From positions 1 through 64,000 of the forward strand of contig JAUQWS010000060.1 in the NCBI GenBank assembly GCA_030835025.1: a stretch of 64,000 nt of DNA, in the 5' to 3' direction. Shown here one piece after another: positions 5,603 to 21,840 of this stretch. The DNA comes from Ignavibacteria bacterium (GTDB lineage: Bacteria; Bacteroidota; Ignavibacteria; Tepidaquicellales; OLB5). The position numbers and the translations under genes were made by a program. The first letter of the stretch is position 1, and each line of letters opens with the position of its first letter. Below the pieces are notes generated by a model that saw only the letters and a program-made list of their open reading frames with translations, made no database searches and had not been told where the DNA came from.

Positions 5603-6019
5603 ATGAAAGAAAGAACACTCGCTATTTTGAAACCGGATTGCCTGGAAAAAAGGGTCCAGGGCAAAGTGATACAGCACATAATTGATGCGGGATTCGGGAT
5701 TAAGGGCATGAGGCTGCTGAGTTTAAGCGAAGATTCAGCAAAAAAATTCTACGCAGTTCATAAGGAAAGACCGTTCTATGTTGAACTTGTTGCGTATATG
5801 ACTTCAGGACCGGTGATTCCTCTTTGCCTGGAGAAAGACAATGCCGTTGCTGATTTCAGGAAACTCATCGGGGCTACTAATCCGGCTAATGCAGAAGAAG
5901 GCACTATACGAAAAATGTACGCTGATTCAATTGAGCGAAACATAGTTCATGGTTCAGATTCACCTGAAAATGCAAAGAACGAGATTTCCCATTTCTTCAA
6001 AGATAGTGACTTAGTCTAG
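5603..6019 (+). CDS. ndk: Nucleoside diphosphate kinase
   Basis: [11 protein letters not shown]-terminus, [12 protein letters not shown] active-site motif. Confidence 0.93.
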
Positions 6020-6037
6020 TCATAACTGTTTTTTCGC

Positions 6038-6070
6038 CTCTACGCCTCTTCTATTAGGAGAGGCATAGAG
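6038..6070. repeat. Stable hairpin CTCTAcGCCTCT/AGAGGCaTAGAG downstream of ndk
   Basis: 11 paired bases with one internal mismatch; no downstream T-tract on the + strand. Confidence 0.5.
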
Positions 6071-6127
6071 AGAGTTACTCCATCCATCCTGACGAGCAGA
6101 TTTCCGTATTAACCGGTTTATTAACTA

Positions 6128-6158
6128 TTGACAAAGTGAACACTTTGCCTTATCTTTG
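6128..6158 (+). promoter_or_regulatory. Promoter of the lrp-glnA-glnA unit: TTGACA-N17-TATCTTTG with an internal CAAAGTG-AA-CACTTTG palindrome
   Basis: TTGACA 6128-6133, TATCTTTG 6151-6158; perfect 7-bp inverted repeat at 6132-6147 lies between the two elements. Confidence 0.7.
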
Positions 6159-6230
6159 CAGGTATAGAATAATATATACCTTACTAATTAAGATTTTTTA
6201 TCAATAATTCCTTAATTATTTAGGAGACCA

Positions 6231-6701
6231 TTGGGCCATTCCGTAGACGATACCGATTTTAAGATCCTTGAGCTGCTTCAATCTGATGCCCGGATAAAGC
6301 GAAACGATATTGCCGAAAAGATCGGGCTTTCGCTCCCATCTGTTACAGACAGGATGAACAAGCTTGAAGAAAGCGGAATAATTGAGTCGTACTTCACAAA
6401 GCTTAACCATAAATCCCTCGGGAAAGATATCACTGCATTCATTTTTGTTACCAGCGATTCATCGGCTCATTACAGAGATTTTATTTCACACGCACAGCAG
6501 AATCCTGAAATACTTGAATGCCATTCAGTCACCGGCGACGGCTCTCACATACTTAAAATAAGGACATCAAACACATCATCTCTTGAAAAACTGCTGGCAA
6601 AGATCCAGTCATGGAAGGGCGTCCGTTCAACACGCACTTCTATTGTCCTTTCAACACACAAGGAAACACTTTCAATTGACCTAAAACAACAAAAGAAATG
6701 A
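6231..6701 (+). CDS. Lrp/AsnC family transcriptional regulator
   Basis: DDTDFKILELLQSDARIKRNDIAEKIGLSLPSVTDRMNKLEESGII winged-HTH signature plus RAM-like C-terminal domain; TTG start. Confidence 0.87.
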   Translation: MGHSVDDTDFKILELLQSDARIKRNDIAEKIGLSLPSVTDRMNKLEESGIIESYFTKLNHKSLGKDITAFIFVTSDSSAHYRDFISHAQQNPEILECHSVTGDGSHILKIRTSNTSSLEKLLAKIQSWKGVRSTRTSIVLSTHKETLSIDLKQQKK

Positions 6702-8080
6702 CTACCAATACAGTTCAGAACATAAACCGCTTAATTAAGGAAAAGAACATCGAAGTTGTTGACCTTAAGTGCATAGACCTGACAGGAAGGCTTCACCACG
6801 TTTCGCTTCCTGTCTTCCCGAACATCATTCAAAACCTCATTAGTGAAGGTGTAGGGTTCGACGGCTCAAGCTACGGTTTCCGCAAAGTCGAAAACAGCGA
6901 TATGATACTTATTCCTGACCTTGAAACAATGTTCATAGATCCTTTCAGAGATACACCAACCCTTAGCTTTTATGCAAACATATATCTTACGGGCGATACA
7001 CGAACACCGTTCTCGCAGGATGGCAGGCATATTGCAAGGCTGGCCGAGGCTCTGGTGAAGAAGTACACAGGGAGCGATACTTCATGGTGGGGTCCCGAAT
7101 TCGAGTTCTACATTTTCTCGAAAGTAAAATACGATACACGCACATCAGCTTCTTATTATGAGATAGATCATGCAGAGGAGTTTTTCGCCAATGCATATCA
7201 CGCGGCAAATCCTTTTGACGTGTATGATGACTTTCGAGATAAAGCCTGTAAGACACTTAAAGAATTCGGGATCAAAGTGAAGTACCACCATCACGAAACC
7301 GGCGAGCGGGGGCAGCAGGAAATCGAAACGTATTTCGAGCCGCTCTTAAAAACCTCTGATAATATCGTTACAGTCAAATATGCATTATTTAATCTTGCCA
7401 AAAAGAATGATATTCACATAACATTCATGCCAAAACCCATGTTCAAGCAGCCCGGCAGCGGTATGCATTTACATACGTTCTTAACCAATAAAGGCAAGAA
7501 CTCATTTTATAAAAAAGGCGAGTATGGTAACATCAACCAAACCGGCAGATACTTCATAGGCGGGCTGCTTAAGAACGGCAGAGTGCTTTCGGCGTTCACT
7601 AATCCCAGCACCAATTCATACAAACGCCTTGTGCCCGGATTTGAAGCTCCCGTTGCTCTAACCTACAGCAAAGGAAACCGCTCCTCTGCGATCAGGATAC
7701 CATCTTACATTTCGAATCCGGAAATGACGCGCTTTGAATACCGGCCGCCGGACTTTACTGCTAATCCCTACCTGTGCCTCTCGGCAGTGCTGATGGCCGG
7801 CATAGACGGTATAATTAACAAGATCGATCCTGTCAAAGAAGGTTTCGGTCCGTTCGATAAGAACATTATTGATCACTCACACGGCGAAACAGTAAACTTT
7901 CTGCCGCGAAATCTTGAAGAATCACTGGATGCTCTGGAGTCAGACAGTCGTTTCCTGGGGCGCGATAATGTTTTTTCTGATGAACTCATAAAACAGTGGA
8001 TAGAGAACAAACACAAAGAGATCAATTCTATCAATACAATGCCTCATCCGTTTGAATATAAAATGTATTTTACATTATAA
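6698..8080 (+). CDS. Glutamine synthetase family protein (paralog 1)
   Basis: [59 protein letters not shown] motifs. Confidence 0.87.
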   Translation: MTTNTVQNINRLIKEKNIEVVDLKCIDLTGRLHHVSLPVFPNIIQNLISEGVGFDGSSYGFRKVENSDMILIPDLETMFIDPFRDTPTLSFYANIYLTGDTRTPFSQDGRHIARLAEALVKKYTGSDTSWWGPEFEFYIFSKVKYDTRTSASYYEIDHAEEFFANAYHAANPFDVYDDFRDKACKTLKEFGIKVKYHHHETGERGQQEIETYFEPLLKTSDNIVTVKYALFNLAKKNDIHITFMPKPMFKQPGSGMHLHTFLTNKGKNSFYKKGEYGNINQTGRYFIGGLLKNGRVLSAFTNPSTNSYKRLVPGFEAPVALTYSKGNRSSAIRIPSYISNPEMTRFEYRPPDFTANPYLCLSAVLMAGIDGIINKIDPVKEGFGPFDKNIIDHSHGETVNFLPRNLEESLDALESDSRFLGRDNVFSDELIKQWIENKHKEINSINTMPHPFEYKMYFTL

Positions 8081-8104
8081 ATAAATAAGGAGAGAAAAAT
8101 AAAA

Positions 8105-9532
8105 ATGGCAGCAAACTCGGCAGCAGTCAAAAACGTTCTTGCAATGATAAAAAAGCACGACGTGAAAATGATCGACTTCCGTTTCACAGATCTTCCCGGG
8201 CAGTGGCAGCATTTCAGCATTCCTGCCAAACACCTTGATGAAAAAGTTTTTTCAGAAGGGCTTGGATTTGACGGCTCATCAATTAGAGGATGGAAATCAA
8301 TAAATGAATCGGATATGCTTATCTTCCCCGATCCGGGTACAGCCGTTATTGATCCGTTTATGGGTGTGACAAATCTTTCTATGATCTGTGATATCCATAG
8401 TCCGCTTACCGGAGAGCCGTATGACCGCGACCCGAGGTTTATAGCAAAAAAAGCCGAGGATTACCTACGCTCAACAAAAATTGCAGATACTATCTATTGC
8501 GGGCCTGAAGCCGAGTTTTTCATTCTAGACCATGTTGCATATAATGTAAACGAATACAGCAGCTGGTACAAGGTTGATTCACGTGAGGGCTTCTGGAACA
8601 CAGGTTCTGAGCTTGAAGCGAATTTGGGGCACAAGATCCGGATGAAAGAAGGATATTTTCCTGTACCGCCGGCAGATTCAACCAATGATATAAGAAATGC
8701 AATGGTTGAACATTTGATGAATGCCGGAATTGACGTTGAAACACAGCATCATGAAGTGGCAACAGGCGGACAGGCTGAAATAGATTACAGATTCTGCCCG
8801 ATGCGCGAGTGCGCCGATAAACTGATGATGTTTAAATACATTGTGAAGAACACTGCAAGAAGTTTCGGAAAGACCGCAACGTTTATGCCAAAGCCTATCT
8901 TCGGGGATAACGGAAGCGGAATGCATACTCATCAGAGCTTGTGGAAAGGCGGCAAACCGCTTTTTGCAGGTGATGAATATGCGGGCTTGAGCGAAACCGC
9001 TCTCTATTATATCGGCGGATTATTGAAACATGCTCCTTCCCTGCTTGCACTTACAAATCCGACAACAAATTCATACAAACGACTCGTTCCGGGTTATGAG
9101 GCACCGGTGAACCTCGCATACTCCAAAGCCAATCGAAGTGCAGCTATCCGGATACCGATGTATTCTGAAAGCCCCAAGGCAAAGCGTGTTGAGTTCCGCT
9201 GCCCTGATGGTACTGCAAATCCATACCTCGCATTTTCTGCAATGCTTATGGCGGGAATTGACGGCATTAAGAACAAGATCCACCCCGGTGATGCAATGGA
9301 AATGGATATATATCACTTAAGCAGCAAGGAACTTAAGAGGATTCCGCAGGCGCCCGATAATCTTGAATCAGCGCTTGAACATTTGCAGAACGATAATGAA
9401 TATCTGAAAGCCGGCGGCGTTTTCACTGATGAACTGATAGAAACCTGGGTAAACTACAAGATGGAAAATGAAGTCAAGCCGATGGCTCTAAGGCCGCATC
9501 CATATGAATTCCATTTGTATTACGAAGTCTAA
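8105..9532 (+). CDS. glnA: Type I glutamine synthetase (paralog 2)
   Basis: [73 protein letters not shown] motifs. Confidence 0.93.
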
Positions 9533-9565
9533 GAGTAGAAAAGCAAAAAGTAAAAAAGAAGTATT

Positions 9566-9597
9566 AAAAAATAAGGGGCTGGTCCCCTTATTTTTTT
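9566..9597 (+). terminator. Intrinsic terminator after the glnA pair
   Basis: AAAAAATAAGGGG-CTGGT-CCCCTTATTTTTT, a perfect 13-bp stem ending in a T-tract. Confidence 0.92.
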
Positions 9598-9682
9598 ATT
9601 TGCTGATGATTTTGGTGTCTTCAAATATTGGAATCAAAAATCAACATTGCTTTGTTCTATTATTAGCAATATTTTAAGATAA

Positions 9683-10306
9683 ATGAACTCAAATAAATAC
9701 ATATTCATCAGTTTTCTTACAATTTCCGTGTTCTTAGGGTCAACTTCGTATTCCCAGGAAAAGAAGAAAATTCCGATACCGGGCATTTACAGCACCGGCT
9801 TAAGTGATAACCGCATTCCTCTTGCTGACGGCGAAACCGACCCGCATTACATTCTTTCTATGAGTGATGACCCGGGTTTTCCCGGACCCGAGAGCAAAGT
9901 GGTTTTCTCCTATGGATTCCCGATGAATCCATGGATATATAATGACAACGACTCCAAATGGATTGCGCCTCGCGCTGATGCAGGAGAGTTCAATGCACCC
10001 GGAACATATGTATATACACTGGCTTTTTCTCTCGGAGCGTTTAAACATGAAACTGCAGAAGTCAGGGGATTCTGGACAACCGATAATAGCGGAATGGATA
10101 TTATATTGAATGGCAAGAGTACAGGATATTCTACCGCATATAATTCATTTGCATTCGGTTTTTTCCCGTTTGAAATGAAAACAGGATTCTCTGAGGGACT
10201 GAATACGATCTCTTTTGTCGTTATTAACGGTGAAGCACCAACCGGACTCAGAGTTGTTATATATGGCGAGGCAGAGCCCAAAGACTTCGCAGAAAATAAT
10301 CCGTAA
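9683..10306 (+). CDS. Secreted hypothetical protein
   Basis: N-terminal signal peptide (MNSNKYIFISFLTISVFLGSTSYSQ); no recognised domain. Confidence 0.7.
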   Translation: MNSNKYIFISFLTISVFLGSTSYSQEKKKIPIPGIYSTGLSDNRIPLADGETDPHYILSMSDDPGFPGPESKVVFSYGFPMNPWIYNDNDSKWIAPRADAGEFNAPGTYVYTLAFSLGAFKHETAEVRGFWTTDNSGMDIILNGKSTGYSTAYNSFAFGFFPFEMKTGFSEGLNTISFVVINGEAPTGLRVVIYGEAEPKDFAENNP

Positions 10307-10369
10307 AAGACTGGCTTGTTGAGCCTGTGAAATCCCGACTTACTCCTAGCCTGCTGCTTTATAATCAGT

Positions 10370-10867
10370 TTACGCTCCCGGAGGCGGCGCAGCTGCAGTT
10401 TTGCTTCTTTCTATTGACTGCAGCGCCAGATAGTTCTGCCCGAATTTTGTAATATTCTCAAGCTCTGTATCATACTGATTAAAATGACGCTCTTCATCTG
10501 CAACTAGCGCTTCAAACAGCTGTTTTGAGATCGCATCGGCATCTGCAGAACATTCATTAGCCCACCTGTTATAGTCCTTTGCACTTTCAACTTCCATTAT
10601 TCTTGCCAGCTCCAGCATTCCCTTTACATCTTTAATGGGCTGCACTTTTTCCTTGGGAACCATAACAACATCACCCTTGAGGAAAAGAATTCTTTCTGCA
10701 AGCTTCTCTACGTGCATCATTTCTTCAATTGCAGTTCGCCTGAATAATCCTGCAAGCAGGTCATACCCTTGGTCATCACAATGAAAATGGAAATACATGT
10801 ACTGGTGCACTGCGCTAAGCTCATCGGCTGCGGCTTTATTAAGTAATTCAATGCTTTTCTTATGCAT
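10370..10867 (-). CDS. bfr: Bacterioferritin / ferritin-like diiron protein
   Basis: ELSAVHQYMYFHFHC, EEMMHVEKLAERILFL, ADEERHFNQYDTELENI four-helix diiron motifs. Confidence 0.87.
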   Translation of the reverse strand: MHKKSIELLNKAAADELSAVHQYMYFHFHCDDQGYDLLAGLFRRTAIEEMMHVEKLAERILFLKGDVVMVPKEKVQPIKDVKGMLELARIMEVESAKDYNRWANECSADADAISKQLFEALVADEERHFNQYDTELENITKFGQNYLALQSIERSKTAAAPPPGA

Positions 10868-11020
10868 AACGTGTGGATTTAATTGATTGAATTTTCCTAT
10901 AGTACTAAATTAGTCAATTATGCAAGGTTTTAATATGATTTGGGTCATTTGCACCTCAGGTATTTGGTTTATGCAACCTTATGGAAAAATAATAGTCTAA
11001 ATACTATAAAATCTCAAAAT

Positions 11021-11656
11021 ATGGAACGAAATATACAATTAAACTGGGTAAGAACCGGAATTGCGTGCGGCCTGGCAACTTTTGTAGTTTATCCGGTTAT
11101 GATGCTTGTTGAACTTCCTGTCCAGTTCACTTTATTACTTGCATACTCATTCGGGATATTTTTCATGCTGGCTTCGGTCGGGTTGTATAATTTTATGTCA
11201 ACAAGTTCGAAATCTGCATTTCTTCAGTCAGCACTTTTGTTCAATATCATTGGATGCACAGTAGTTGTCATAATGCTTACTATTCAGCTTGCACTTTTTT
11301 CCAAAGCGAAATACGTTTCCGGTGATGCATCTAAAGAGCTGGTAAATTACATCTTCTCGCTTACCAATCTTGTTCAGCTTTCGCTTGATGTTGTGTGGGA
11401 TGTGTTTGTATCAGTTGGAACAATTCTGTTCGCACTCAAAATGTTCAAACATCCAAAGCTCGGAAAAATAATCGGAAGCATTGGTATAATGGTTGGAGGA
11501 GCCTTGCTGTTCAATAATGTTTACACTTTCCCGGTCCCTCCCGCAGAAGCCGGTTCTATTGATTTCGGCCCGTTTGTCGCACTGTGGTACCTTTCAGTTA
11601 CAGTTATGATGTTAAGATCCTTCAAATGGTTAAAGGAAATCATAGGTACCCATTGA
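11021..11656 (+). CDS. Multi-TM hypothetical membrane protein
   Basis: Several hydrophobic helices; ATG at 11021 (MERNIQLNWVRTG) preferred over 10940. Confidence 0.65.
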   Translation: MERNIQLNWVRTGIACGLATFVVYPVMMLVELPVQFTLLLAYSFGIFFMLASVGLYNFMSTSSKSAFLQSALLFNIIGCTVVVIMLTIQLALFSKAKYVSGDASKELVNYIFSLTNLVQLSLDVVWDVFVSVGTILFALKMFKHPKLGKIIGSIGIMVGGALLFNNVYTFPVPPAEAGSIDFGPFVALWYLSVTVMMLRSFKWLKEIIGTH

Positions 11657-11741
11657 TCGGGCTGCAAAAAATCCTTTAACTCTGCGGAACAAAACCTTAT
11701 CATTCATAGTAGACACTCTATACTTAATTTTAAGGTTTATT

Positions 11742-12404
11742 ATGAAACACGAAAATCTATTCAAAATCTACATTCCGGAACCCTGCCACGAGGACTGGGA
11801 TAAAATGGCACCGAATGAACAGGGTGCTTACTGCAAGGTATGTGCTAAAACCGTGGTGGATTTTTCTGACCGAAAAGAAGATGAAATTCAGCGCTTCCTG
11901 AATGATAACATAAACAACAAGATCTGCGGACGTTTCAGGGTAAACCAATTATCACAAAGTGAAATCCCCCCGCTTAAAATTAATATTGAAAGGCCCAAGT
12001 TTGAATTTCCCGGATTCCTGCTTCCGGTTTTAACGCCTTTCCGTGCTACTGCGCTGGCGTTGATGCTCTGGGCATCGGCAATGCTTTCTTCATGTGCGGG
12101 AGAAGGTTCCGGCGGCGGTGATGATGAAAGATTAAGCGGAGCAGTTGAGCTGGTTGATACTACTGATAATTCATTCAACATTGATGACTCAAGGATACAG
12201 GGCGGAATAACGGTGAGGAATGCTGCGGACTCAACCTGTAATACTGAAGATTATTCCAGAATAACGAAGACTGTCGGAAAGATAAAGATCGAACGGACTC
12301 CCCTGCCGGATACACGCAAAACAGATTCAACAGAGATATTTATGAAGGGCGAAATTCAGAAGAAAACACATGGTGTTATCAAGAAATCACCGGATGAAAA
12401 ATAA
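11742..12404 (+). CDS. Hypothetical protein with N-terminal Cys motif and an internal TM segment
   Basis: YIPEPCHEDWDKMAPNEQGAYCKVCAKTVVDFSD motif followed by a central hydrophobic segment. Confidence 0.7.
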   Translation: MKHENLFKIYIPEPCHEDWDKMAPNEQGAYCKVCAKTVVDFSDRKEDEIQRFLNDNINNKICGRFRVNQLSQSEIPPLKINIERPKFEFPGFLLPVLTPFRATALALMLWASAMLSSCAGEGSGGGDDERLSGAVELVDTTDNSFNIDDSRIQGGITVRNAADSTCNTEDYSRITKTVGKIKIERTPLPDTRKTDSTEIFMKGEIQKKTHGVIKKSPDEK

Positions 12405-12415
12405 ATAATATAATT

Positions 12416-12496
12416 CCCCTCTTGAGAGGGGTGGCTGCCGAAGGCAGACGGGGTGTGTTGCTTGTATTAGTGCGGAGGCAAGCCAGCCTCCTACAG
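12416..12496. repeat. Composite of two interspersed palindromic repeats: CCCCTCT-TG-AGAGGGG and GCGGAGGCAAGCCAGCCTCC
   Basis: Palindrome at 12416-12431; the second element (12472-12496) is similar to sequences at 15447-15472 and 50718-50741. Confidence 0.75.
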
Positions 12497-17977: not shown

Positions 17978-18616
17978 TTATCTGATGCGTTCTTTAGCCT
18001 GCGGACGGATCGTTCGCGGCCTTTCTGTTTCAGTCTTATTTTCGGGAACAACTTCCTTTTCCCTATCGGTGATCTTTGAGTCAATAATCTTGCGTTTGCT
18101 GTTATTCTCTGTCTTTGATTTTTCTTCTATTATCTTCAGCATTCTGCGCGCTTCATCATATTGCGGATCTGATTCCGGGACGTTTTTGAGAAATCTTTCA
18201 GCAAGCTTGTACTTTTTCATCCTGAAAAAATCTGACCCTCTTTTGAAGTGAATTGATGTATCCGGAGCATCTGTAACGACTTCCCGAAGTGCCGTTGAAT
18301 CCGTTTGAGAAGTTTCGTATGTTACTGCTCTGTCTTCGGTGATATTCGTTTCTTCATCCTGGGAACTGCTCAACAGCAGGAATACCACTGCACTCAGCAA
18401 AGAAATCAGCATAATAACCACCGCTATTATGATAAAACCCGCTTTGCCTCCTGATGTGCTGCCTGATACTTTAAACGGATTGTTGTAGTATGGAAGGATG
18501 TATTTTTTGTAATAGGCAGGATCCGCCTGCTGATAATATTTGGCAAGCTCGTCGAAATATTGACGGCTGTTTTGCCAGTAATTTTCCAGTTCTTCTTTAG
18601 AGGGACCTGTTGACAT
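17978..18616 (-). CDS. Membrane-anchored hypothetical protein (GPSKEEL family, paralog A)
   Basis: N-terminal GPSKEELENYWQNSRQYFDELAKYYQQADPAYYKKYILPYYNNPF, one TM segment, C-terminal TPR-like hairpin; paralogous to 18646-19209. Confidence 0.75.
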   Translation of the reverse strand: MSTGPSKEELENYWQNSRQYFDELAKYYQQADPAYYKKYILPYYNNPFKVSGSTSGGKAGFIIIAVVIMLISLLSAVVFLLLSSSQDEETNITEDRAVTYETSQTDSTALREVVTDAPDTSIHFKRGSDFFRMKKYKLAERFLKNVPESDPQYDEARRMLKIIEEKSKTENNSKRKIIDSKITDREKEVVPENKTETERPRTIRPQAKERIR

Positions 18617-18645: not shown

Positions 18646-19209
18646 TTATTTTCTATACTTTCGCAGGTATTTCATATTCTTAAGCAGTTCTTTTGACTGC
18701 TCGTAATATTCTGTACCAGGTTTAACTTTTTTGAGATGATATTCTGCTTTGTCGTAATCCTGTTCTGCGATTTTCTTTGAACCCACTATGAAATGATCGT
18801 CCGAAGTCATTCCGTCTGAATCCTCTTCTTCATCAGGAGTTTTCAGTTCCTTTTTCTCTTTTTCGGTTCCGGGTTCAATCTCCCTGACCTTCTGTTCATC
18901 ATCGCTGCCGATAATCTTCTCCAGCTTTTTGGTTTCAGTGCTTAGATCATCCCGGAAGATAAAATATGCAGCACCTGCAGCACCTATTGCAAGTACAAGC
19001 AGGAAAACAAAAACAGGAAGAATTTTTGCTCCTCCGCCCGGTTGTTTGCCCCGCTGAACGTTTGCAAACGGATTGTCATAGAAGGGCTGAATGTGTGCCC
19101 TGTAATATTCAGGATCTGCCTGGCGGTAATGATTTGCAAGCTCATCAAAGTATTGACGGCTGTTTTGCCAGTACATCTGCAATTCTTCCTTCGAGGGTCC
19201 GCCTGCCAT
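18646..19209 (-). CDS. Membrane-anchored hypothetical protein (GPSKEEL family, paralog B)
   Basis: N-terminal GPSKEELQMYWQNSRQYFDELANHYRQADPEYYRAHIQPFYDNPF; same architecture as its neighbour. Confidence 0.75.
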   Translation of the reverse strand: MAGGPSKEELQMYWQNSRQYFDELANHYRQADPEYYRAHIQPFYDNPFANVQRGKQPGGGAKILPVFVFLLVLAIGAAGAAYFIFRDDLSTETKKLEKIIGSDDEQKVREIEPGTEKEKKELKTPDEEEDSDGMTSDDHFIVGSKKIAEQDYDKAEYHLKKVKPGTEYYEQSKELLKNMKYLRKYRK

Positions 19210-19291: not shown

Positions 19292-19321
19292 TTGACAAAT
19301 TAAATGAATGTGTTATATTTG
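19292..19321 (+). promoter_or_regulatory. Promoter TTGACA-N16-TATATTTG of the candidate ncRNA
   Basis: TTGACA 19292-19297, TATATTTG 19314-19321, no plausible + strand CDS downstream. Confidence 0.7.
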
Positions 19322-19326
19322 CATTA

Positions 19327-19448
19327 GAAGGTTACACGTTCTTTTAGTAACATCAAAAGTATGGCAACAGGAGTTAGCTAGGTAAGGGTGGCTAACGTTT
19401 TTAGTAAGAATGCTCCCAGTATTCTGAAAAAACCTGTTGCCTTTTTTA
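19327..19448 (+). ncRNA. Candidate structured small RNA with a three-way-junction core
   Basis: P1 GGCAACAGG (19363-71)/CCTGTTGCC (19433-41) followed by TTTTTT; P2 GTTAGC (19373-78)/GCTAAC (19391-96); P3 AGAATGC (19407-13)/GTATTCT (19419-25); extra 5' hairpin GTTAC/GTAAC; consensus promoter just upstream. Ends are estimates. Confidence 0.55.
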
Positions 19449-19472
19449 TTGATTTTTTTGAAGAATTCAATA

Positions 19473-19506
19473 AAAAAGCCTGCCCGAAGTATGGACAGGC
19501 TTTTTT
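19473..19506. terminator. Bidirectional intrinsic terminator
   Basis: AAAAAAGCCTGcCC-GAAGTAT-GGaCAGGCTTTTTT; serves the - strand ACP-like gene and could act as back-up on the + strand. Confidence 0.85.
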
Positions 19507-19541: not shown

Positions 19542-19781
19542 TTATCCAAGTTTTTTCTTGATCAGTATGACTGCGTCTCCTACCGTGAGGATCCCGTCTT
19601 CGTCGCCTTGTTCATAAGGTACGCCGAAAAACTGCTCCAGTTCAACAATGTAAGTAATTGTATCCTGTTCTGTAACTATTCCGATATTTGCAAGAGCGGT
19701 CAAGTCGTTGATTGATGCCGGAGGATACCCCGTATAGTCAGCAGTAAAATCTATTACCTGCTGATTAATTGGATCTGCCAT
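19542..19781 (-). CDS. Acyl carrier protein-like small protein, apparently lacking the phosphopantetheine Ser
   Basis: 79 aa; ANIGIVTEQDTITYIVELEQFFGVPYEQGDEDGILTVGDAVILIKKKLG aligns by eye with ACP helix II and C-terminus, but the DSL Ser position is Glu. Confidence 0.5.
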   Translation of the reverse strand: MADPINQQVIDFTADYTGYPPASINDLTALANIGIVTEQDTITYIVELEQFFGVPYEQGDEDGILTVGDAVILIKKKLG

Positions 19782-20391: not shown

Positions 20392-21840
20392 ATGGATATT
20401 GTAGACTCAAAAATAGCGATTCTCTTTAGGTCATTTTCCAAAAACGAGTTTGAAGAACTCGAAAACTTCGTAAAATCACCCTTTTTCAATACAAGCAGTC
20501 AGATTACCGGTCTTTTTCAGCTACTCAAGAGTGATTACCCTCAATTTAGTACTCTTGATAAAAAGCGAATATTCAATGCTTTATATCCAAAAGAGGAGTT
20601 TAAAGATAAGAAGATCCGTGACCTTTTTACCAGGCTGCTTAAGATTGCCGAAGAGTTCCTTGCACAGTTGGAATTTCGGAAGGCGGAGCTTAACTTCAAC
20701 CGCCTGGTTCTGAAACAATATGCCGAAAGGAATCTTGAAAGGCATTTCAGTTCGAAGCTCAAAGACGCTGAAACAAGAATGAACAAAGAAGAACATCACG
20801 GCAGTAATTATTATTTTGAAAGATATGCATTGCTTAGAACAAGGCGTGAATATTTTGAAAGCCTTAAAGCTTTTGGAAAAGGCAAAGAATTCTCTGAGGA
20901 TTTTTCGCTGGAAATCGAATTGTTCAATGACTACGTGATCTTCAGTTTGTTAACTTATGGAGTGCACCTTGAGATACACAAGAAAGGATTCAATTTTGAG
21001 TATGAATATGTAATGCTCGAAAAACTGATCGAATACCTCCGTCAATATCCTGATAAGACAGACCCGCTGATGAATGTTCTTTTGCATTTGATTCTCCTTG
21101 CAAAAAATCCAAACGAAGAAAGTCTCTATTTCAATATCAGGAAAGAACTTGATTCCTGTAAAGGCATTTTTGAAGAAAATGATCTCAGGTATATAATGAT
21201 CGAGCTGTTCAATTATACTAAGCTTCAGTCACTTGAAAAGGATAAGCCCGAATTCCGCAAAGACAACTATGCACTTCTTAAGGAATCCATTGAGATGGGA
21301 ATGTATCCGAAAGAAGGCATCTTTCTGGCTGAATCTTCTTACATAACGGTTTGCGCTACTGCATTGCAGGAAAAGGACTTCGAGTGGGCTCTTTACTTCA
21401 TGAATAAATATAAAGAAAAGCTGAATCCGGATATTGCAGCTAATGCATTCCGATATTGCATGAGCGTTTATGAATACCGCCTTGGGAATTATAGTGAAGC
21501 GCTTAAAGGGTTTGCCAAGGTATCGCTAGATGACTTTTATTATCAGCTCCGTGTAAAGAATCACCAGTTAAAGATATATTACGAAACTGCCAAATATGAA
21601 AGCGCCCTGAGCCTGATAGACAGCTACAGGCATTTTCTTTCCGCAAATCGTTTTCTGCCAGAATTCGTAAGGGTCAGGTTTTCGAACTATGTCAATTTCC
21701 TCAGCAGGATAGTTAATATCCATCTTGGCGGAAACATAGCAAATATCCCGGATATTATCAAAGATATCGAAAGCATTAACCAGTCAGAGATCGAAAATAA
21801 GGTGTGGCTCCTTGAACAGATCTCGAAGCTAAAAGCCTGA
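20392..21840 (+). CDS. Helical-repeat hypothetical protein (paralog of 56361-57857)
   Basis: FRSFSKNEFEELENFVKSPFFNT...LFQLLKSDYPQFS...ALYPKEEFKDKKIRDLFTRLLKIAEEFL matches the other paralog; C-terminal SLIDSYRHFLSANR is also shared. Confidence 0.77.
   Translation: MDIVDSKIAILFRSFSKNEFEELENFVKSPFFNTSSQITGLFQLLKSDYPQFSTLDKKRIFNALYPKEEFKDKKIRDLFTRLLKIAEEFLAQLEFRKAELNFNRLVLKQYAERNLERHFSSKLKDAETRMNKEEHHGSNYYFERYALLRTRREYFESLKAFGKGKEFSEDFSLEIELFNDYVIFSLLTYGVHLEIHKKGFNFEYEYVMLEKLIEYLRQYPDKTDPLMNVLLHLILLAKNPNEESLYFNIRKELDSCKGIFEENDLRYIMIELFNYTKLQSLEKDKPEFRKDNYALLKESIEMGMYPKEGIFLAESSYITVCATALQEKDFEWALYFMNKYKEKLNPDIAANAFRYCMSVYEYRLGNYSEALKGFAKVSLDDFYYQLRVKNHQLKIYYETAKYESALSLIDSYRHFLSANRFLPEFVRVRFSNYVNFLSRIVNIHLGGNIANIPDIIKDIESINQSEIENKVWLLEQISKLKA

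Follow-up and report, generated by a model that had tools for sequence, protein, structure and literature searches.

Comparative analysis of a 64-kb stretch of Ignavibacteria DNA (the window) identified, at positions 19364-19448, what is almost certainly a genuine, uncatalogued family of structured small RNA (sRNA), which is limited to one family of Ignavibacteria. A preliminary description had proposed a novel structured sRNA with its own promoter at this locus, and covariation, conservation of the promoter and the lack of an Rfam match all argue for that proposal. The sequence combines its own promoter and an intrinsic terminator with no linked coding sequence, and comparison of the copies revealed a core of ~80 nt arranged as a three-way junction, in which P1 is the closing helix, P2 carries a GGUAAGGG loop and the third arm consists of P3a, an AGUA/GAA internal loop and P3b (Table 1). 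Covariance models detected the sRNA in all 15 of the 15 genomes of the window's family, spanning three genera, with confident members scoring 48-110 bits. With these results, a bacterial group in which the literature searched had shown no regulatory RNA gains a well-supported RNA family, and the structure is good enough for immediate biochemical work.

Table 1. Positions of the sRNA and its flanking elements in the window
Feature	Position	Strand	Evidence
Promoter: TTGACA, 16-nt spacer, TATATTTG	19292-19321	+	11/12 matches; kept in syntenic orthologues
Leader from -7 box to P1; predicted transcript start in its first few bases	19322-19363	+	
Weak stem P0 (GTTAC/GTAAC) around boxA	19331-19351	+	anchored stem covaries in 9 orthologues
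boxA-like GTTCTTT	19338-19344	+	13/14 orthologous leaders; rRNA leader/spacer heptamer identical
P1 5' strand GCAACAGG	19364-19371	+	pairs with 19433-19440; ninth pair through 19363
P2, 8 bp; its 8-nt loop GGUAAGGG (19381-19388) is nearly invariant	19373-19396	+	97.8% of cells paired; 5/8 pairs with double changes
P3a 5' strand UUUU (19399-19402) and AGUA of putative bulged-G motif (19403-19406)	19399-19406	+	P3a covariation; AGUA in 24/24 copies
P3b, 7 bp, with loop UCCCA (19414-19418)	19407-19425	+	6/7 pairs with double changes
GAA of putative bulged-G motif (19426-19428) and P3a 3' strand AAAA (19429-19432)	19426-19432	+	covariation
P1 3' strand CCTGTTGC, C, U tract	19433-19447	+	U-rich tract in aligned copies
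Terminator-like hairpin, bidirectional and separate from the sRNA, ahead of the convergent gene 19542-19781	19472-19506	.	read from sequence

The four-helix model, with 27 base pairs, was evaluated on 24 copies, 17 of them distinct; 94.3% of cells were paired and 18 of the 27 pairs changed on both sides. Double changes were found in 68 cells, as compared with 21.5 in shuffles, none of 500 of which reached the real value, and with at most 14 in slid versions of the model, which paired no more than 52.5% of cells. Compensatory changes, which the preliminary description had named as the check on its proposal, were abundant in P1, P2 and P3 across homologues. P3a covaried as well (column pair 39/70 was UA in 8, CG in 7 and AU in 1), and the copy at locus L094 carried one added base on either side of this helix, a paired insertion. 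Pair 18/29 was U-G in 16 and pair 51/59 was G-U in 11 of the 17 distinct copies, and because these conserved pairs fit only a + strand RNA, the + strand RNA is taken as the functional form. Such strand-specific pairs, together with the promoters, the terminators and the stable synteny of the main copy, make it extremely unlikely that the locus is a DNA-level repeat or mobile element and not an RNA gene, even though genomes hold multiple copies, some of which are close to conjugation-type or defence genes; none of the phage and plasmid collections scanned carried the sRNA. While the stems vary, GGUAAGGG, AGUA and UCCCA/UCUCA were nearly fixed, even among paralogues at unrelated loci, as expected of a surface that binds a partner or forms tertiary structure.

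Both the MFE and the centroid predictions returned the P1/P2/P3 fold (z -3.1, 1 of 200 shuffles equally good), and the core folded alone (19364-19440) gave z -3.9, with 0 of 200 shuffles as good. P1 was found as proposed, GGCAACAGG (19363-19371) pairing with CCTGTTGCC (19433-19441) directly before TTTTTT, and it doubles as an intrinsic terminator stem with the U tract behind it. The GTTAGC/GCTAAC pairing of P2 is likewise present, in a helix that is in fact 8 bp long through an added A-U and U-G. For P3, the AGAATGC/GTATTCT pairing and its UCCCA loop stood, but the arm is not the single helix that had been described, as comparison split it into P3a and P3b; P3a, formed by UUUU/AAAA (19399-19402/19429-19432) below the AGUA/GAA internal loop, was absent from the earlier description. 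One base separates P1 from P2, two separate P2 from P3a and none separates P3a from P1, and this spacing indicates a tight three-way junction.

Between the two covarying helices P3a and P3b, AGUA lies opposite GAA, the sequence arrangement of a sarcin-ricin motif. The second strand read GAA in 20 of 24 copies as aligned, CAA in 2 and GAG in 1, and that of L094, which has one extra base, reads GAA once shifted. We take the AGUA/GAA internal loop to be the sarcin-ricin (bulged-G) signature, and infer that the P3 internal loop forms a bulged-G motif. The modular use of this motif and its base-triple core have been described (PMC8450098). A GGG:CCC contact may perhaps also form between the P2 and P3b loops; this candidate contact showed little covariation, CUC loops retain a G-U, and it is not kept in L093, the most diverged copy. 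The L093 copy (1789-1875 of G004:C66), in which P1 and the P2 loop are altered, is perhaps a decaying paralogue.

The presence of a putative bulged-G motif raises the question of whether the sRNA mimics the 23S sarcin-ricin loop (SRL, H95) and has as its partner a translation factor, a ribosomal protein or a toxin that attacks the SRL. The sRNA paralogues and the 23S sarcin-ricin stem alike have AGUA/GA flanked by helices, and most paralogues carry CGUUCUUAGUA, an 11-nt sequence identical to the 5' strand of the 23S stem in this genus. However, the main copies are one base off (CGUUUUU), neither the GAGA loop nor the 3' strand is copied, and the 11-nt match is only mildly unusual given the common motif and possibly due to chance. 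The apical loop of the sRNA also differs from that of H95, and its motif sits inside a three-way junction. On this evidence we consider SRL mimicry decidedly improbable. An rRNA-derived origin of the sRNA was rejected, as the rRNA matches were short only.

A DNA search of 60 relatives recovered the locus in 12 of 12 sampled genomes of the genus, where identities were 79-91%; for two more genera of the family, it recovered parts of the locus. Outside the family, no score exceeded ~27 bits, whether in sister-family genomes or in the remaining genomes of two samples, one of 296 relatives and one of 398 genomes from the phylum; the covariance matches below 27 bits, mostly ~30 nt long, resembled terminator stems arising by chance and were discarded. 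When 85,462 species were scanned for exact matches to GGTAAGGGTG-N4-8-CGTT-N1-3-TTAGTA, 21 stretches were returned, all from records titled Ignavibacteria, Chlorobi or Chlorobiota bacterium. The main copy was syntenic in 14 genomes, lying upstream of, and divergent from, a small membrane-protein-like gene (the homologue of 18646-19209), beyond which there was mostly a small ACP-like gene and sufB. Upstream of the homologues of this flanking gene in the sister family, a syntenic counterpart was sought and none was found. The presence of the sRNA in every family member and its fixed locus suggest a housekeeping role.

The promoter that had been proposed is present in the window, with TTGACA (19292-19297) and TATATTTG (19314-19321), a Bacteroidota-type TAnnTTTG -7 box, separated by 16 nt. 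Since a promoter scan by itself was not above chance (1 found vs 1.5 expected), the match draws its value from conservation in the syntenic orthologues and not from a single-sequence score. The leaders of the orthologues are 39-65 nt long, and the region between promoter and P1 is divergent apart from GTTCTTT, which occurred in 13 of 14 leaders and in at most 7 after shuffling; outside these seven bases, the boxA consensus varies. A 5' hairpin had been described here, and one does fold best at ~19323-19348, but the conserved feature is a different one, boxA in the loop of a weak stem. An anchored GAnnn/nnnTC stem gave 43 paired positions in nine orthologues vs 30.7 expected (p 0.0014, in a test chosen after the sequences had been viewed), and a general stem search around boxA was weakly significant, with 29 of 500 shuffles equally good. 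P0 of the window copy is placed differently from the anchored stem of the orthologues.

The same heptamer occurs in the rRNA operons of two relatives (G009 and G002), where the leader contains ATTACGTTCTTTCAACA right after a possible hairpin and the 16S-23S spacer contains TTGTTCTTTTAACAA; judged by position and sequence, these are the boxA sites of the host genus. Over the heptamer, the boxA of the sRNA leader matches the rRNA boxA of the organism, as would the sequence of a boxA transcription unit, and GTTCTTT agrees with the published consensus GYTCTTTAANA, which is gamma-proteobacterial (PMC5725501). In rRNA leader boxB-boxA units and in the boxA-controlled suhB, a GTTCTTT boxA follows shortly after the promoter of a structured RNA, as here, but the boxA in the window precedes a short terminated sRNA (PMC5725501). 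The published boxA survey left non-coding RNAs out, by its own statement (PMC5725501), and with an rRNA-type boxA ahead of a small RNA, Nus-factor control would reach non-coding RNAs as well.

Eleven further loci lay outside the syntenic place, and one genome (G010) holds five copies in all. These extra copies, which have no boxA leader, adjoin rpsF, follow an Omp28-like gene or lie close to ThiF/type I restriction or HerA/primase-like genes. Of the 11, 8 have TAnnTTTG or TATAAT no more than 30 nt from P1 (7 no more than 16 nt), where 2-12% would be expected per locus (P 2e-10 to 2e-7). The position of these -7 boxes next to P1 makes the 80-nt core look like a transcription unit of its own, and the extra copies are predicted to start transcription directly at P1. 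Because the extra copies lack boxA and the flanks of the heptamer are variable, boxA is no part of the core function. One extra copy (L089, region 5808-12451 of G012:C6) has a ThiF/E1-type gene with its neighbours on one side and a type I restriction S/M pair on the other, in what is likely a defence or mobile region, and another (L086, region 5852-8642 of G010:C116) adjoins genes for a HerA-like ATPase and a DnaG-like protein, surroundings that suggest an integrative element.

The arrangement of the copies also bears on whether the sRNA could be a cis-acting element (a riboswitch, attenuator or terminator) of a neighbouring gene. P1 and the U tract do form a terminator, and two extra copies lie directly behind the Omp28-like gene. 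In the window, however, the nearest downstream gene on the + strand starts at 20392, ~940 bases beyond the RNA; no conserved same-strand gene lies directly downstream, as one would for a riboswitch or cis-leader; the neighbours vary between copies; and most copies have their own promoter abutting P1, making a cis-acting role very unlikely. The claim that no credible + strand coding sequence lies here was borne out by reading the sequence, as two of the frames are stopped within the invariant UAGGUAAGG and the remaining one ends soon after.

We propose, with the chances about evenly balanced, that the RNA is a family-specific trans-acting sRNA, the main copy of which is an rRNA-like boxA unit, and that a conserved partner binds it as a rigid scaffold or decoy. 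The main copy would be transcribed from its own promoter, and P1 and the U tract would end transcription. BoxA may load NusB-S10 on RNA polymerase, as on rRNA, so that the main copy would be treated like rRNA, being made, folded or processed in the same way and rising with growth. The junction and the putative bulged-G motif would fix the position of the two loops relative to each other, perhaps via the GGG:CCC loop contact, and the RNA could then bind one conserved partner in trans, as scaffold or decoy; the likeliest partners are proteins and ribonucleoproteins of the gene expression machinery. We hold the partner-binding step more tentatively, at somewhat less than even chances. We prefer a protein or ribonucleoprotein to mRNA pairing for two reasons: some of the invariant sequence lies in a non-canonical internal loop, and these genomes show weak SD complementarity. 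We consider it improbable that the sRNA is a lineage-specific housekeeping RNA made as a mini rRNA unit, with a boxA antitermination complex formed on a transcript of ~125 nt, and that its bulged-G junction imitates a site on the ribosome and so titrates a factor of translation or ribosome assembly in parallel with rRNA synthesis.

LhrC-type sRNAs of Listeria are multi-copy RNAs with UCCC loops. The window sRNA resembles them in having several copies per genome, an intrinsic terminator and a C-rich hairpin loop, and might by analogy be an antisense-type trans-acting sRNA, the UCCCA loop, perhaps with the G-rich P2 loop, pairing with the ribosome binding sites of several mRNAs. The UCCC is in an exposed hairpin loop that is the same in several copies per genome, and AGGA and GGAG occur upstream of 22% and 11% of starts vs 5% and 3% in a control stretch. 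SD use is weak, however, with GGGAG, the direct complement, before just 2% of long ORFs, and simple antisense loops would account neither for P3a and the invariance of AGUA/GAA nor for the conservation of the apical stretch of P2. Unlike LhrC, the window sRNA also has a three-way junction, a putative bulged-G motif, a conserved G-rich loop, an rRNA-type boxA leader and no Rfam match. We regard antisense action as possible but on balance doubtful.

Comparison with known families supported the claim that the RNA belongs to none of them, as 0 families of Rfam 15 reached the gathering threshold in the 64 kb; at E up to 10 there were sub-threshold matches only, many on terminator sequence. The literature search returned no description of this RNA. 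The best sub-threshold + strand match of the sRNA type was BTnc231 (RF04180), with 25.5 bits vs a gathering score of 80.4; it has a AAAAAGCCU...AGGCUUUUUU terminator in common with the window, but the match is convincing only over the separate terminator (19472-19506), outside the sRNA. Like 6S RNA (RF00013, RF01685), the sRNA is a stand-alone RNA of the housekeeping type, present in every member of the family, but 6S RNA is a long rod with a central, open-complex-like bubble whereas the sRNA is a junction with two hairpins. The Rfam 6S models had no match in the window or in 10 genomes of the order, although the 6S-Flavo control matched nowhere, so that this result does not show 6S RNA to be absent. 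Replacement of 6S by the sRNA is unsupported, as the sister family, like the window's family, gave no match to the 6S models. The idea that the sRNA stands in for a missing 4.5S RNA was rejected, since SRP RNA was found in 10 of 10 genomes tested.

Finally, the genes that flank the sRNA in the window, all on the - strand, have features of their own. Two tandem paralogous genes (17978-18616 and 18646-19209), whose products start M(A/S)(G/T)GPSKEEL..YWQNSRQYFDELA, encode a likely transmembrane segment, belong to no clear Pfam family and have homologues in the sister family too. The convergent gene at 19542-19781 encodes a 79-aa acyl-carrier-like protein with no Pfam match, which seems to lack the DSL serine motif and has LANIGI instead.
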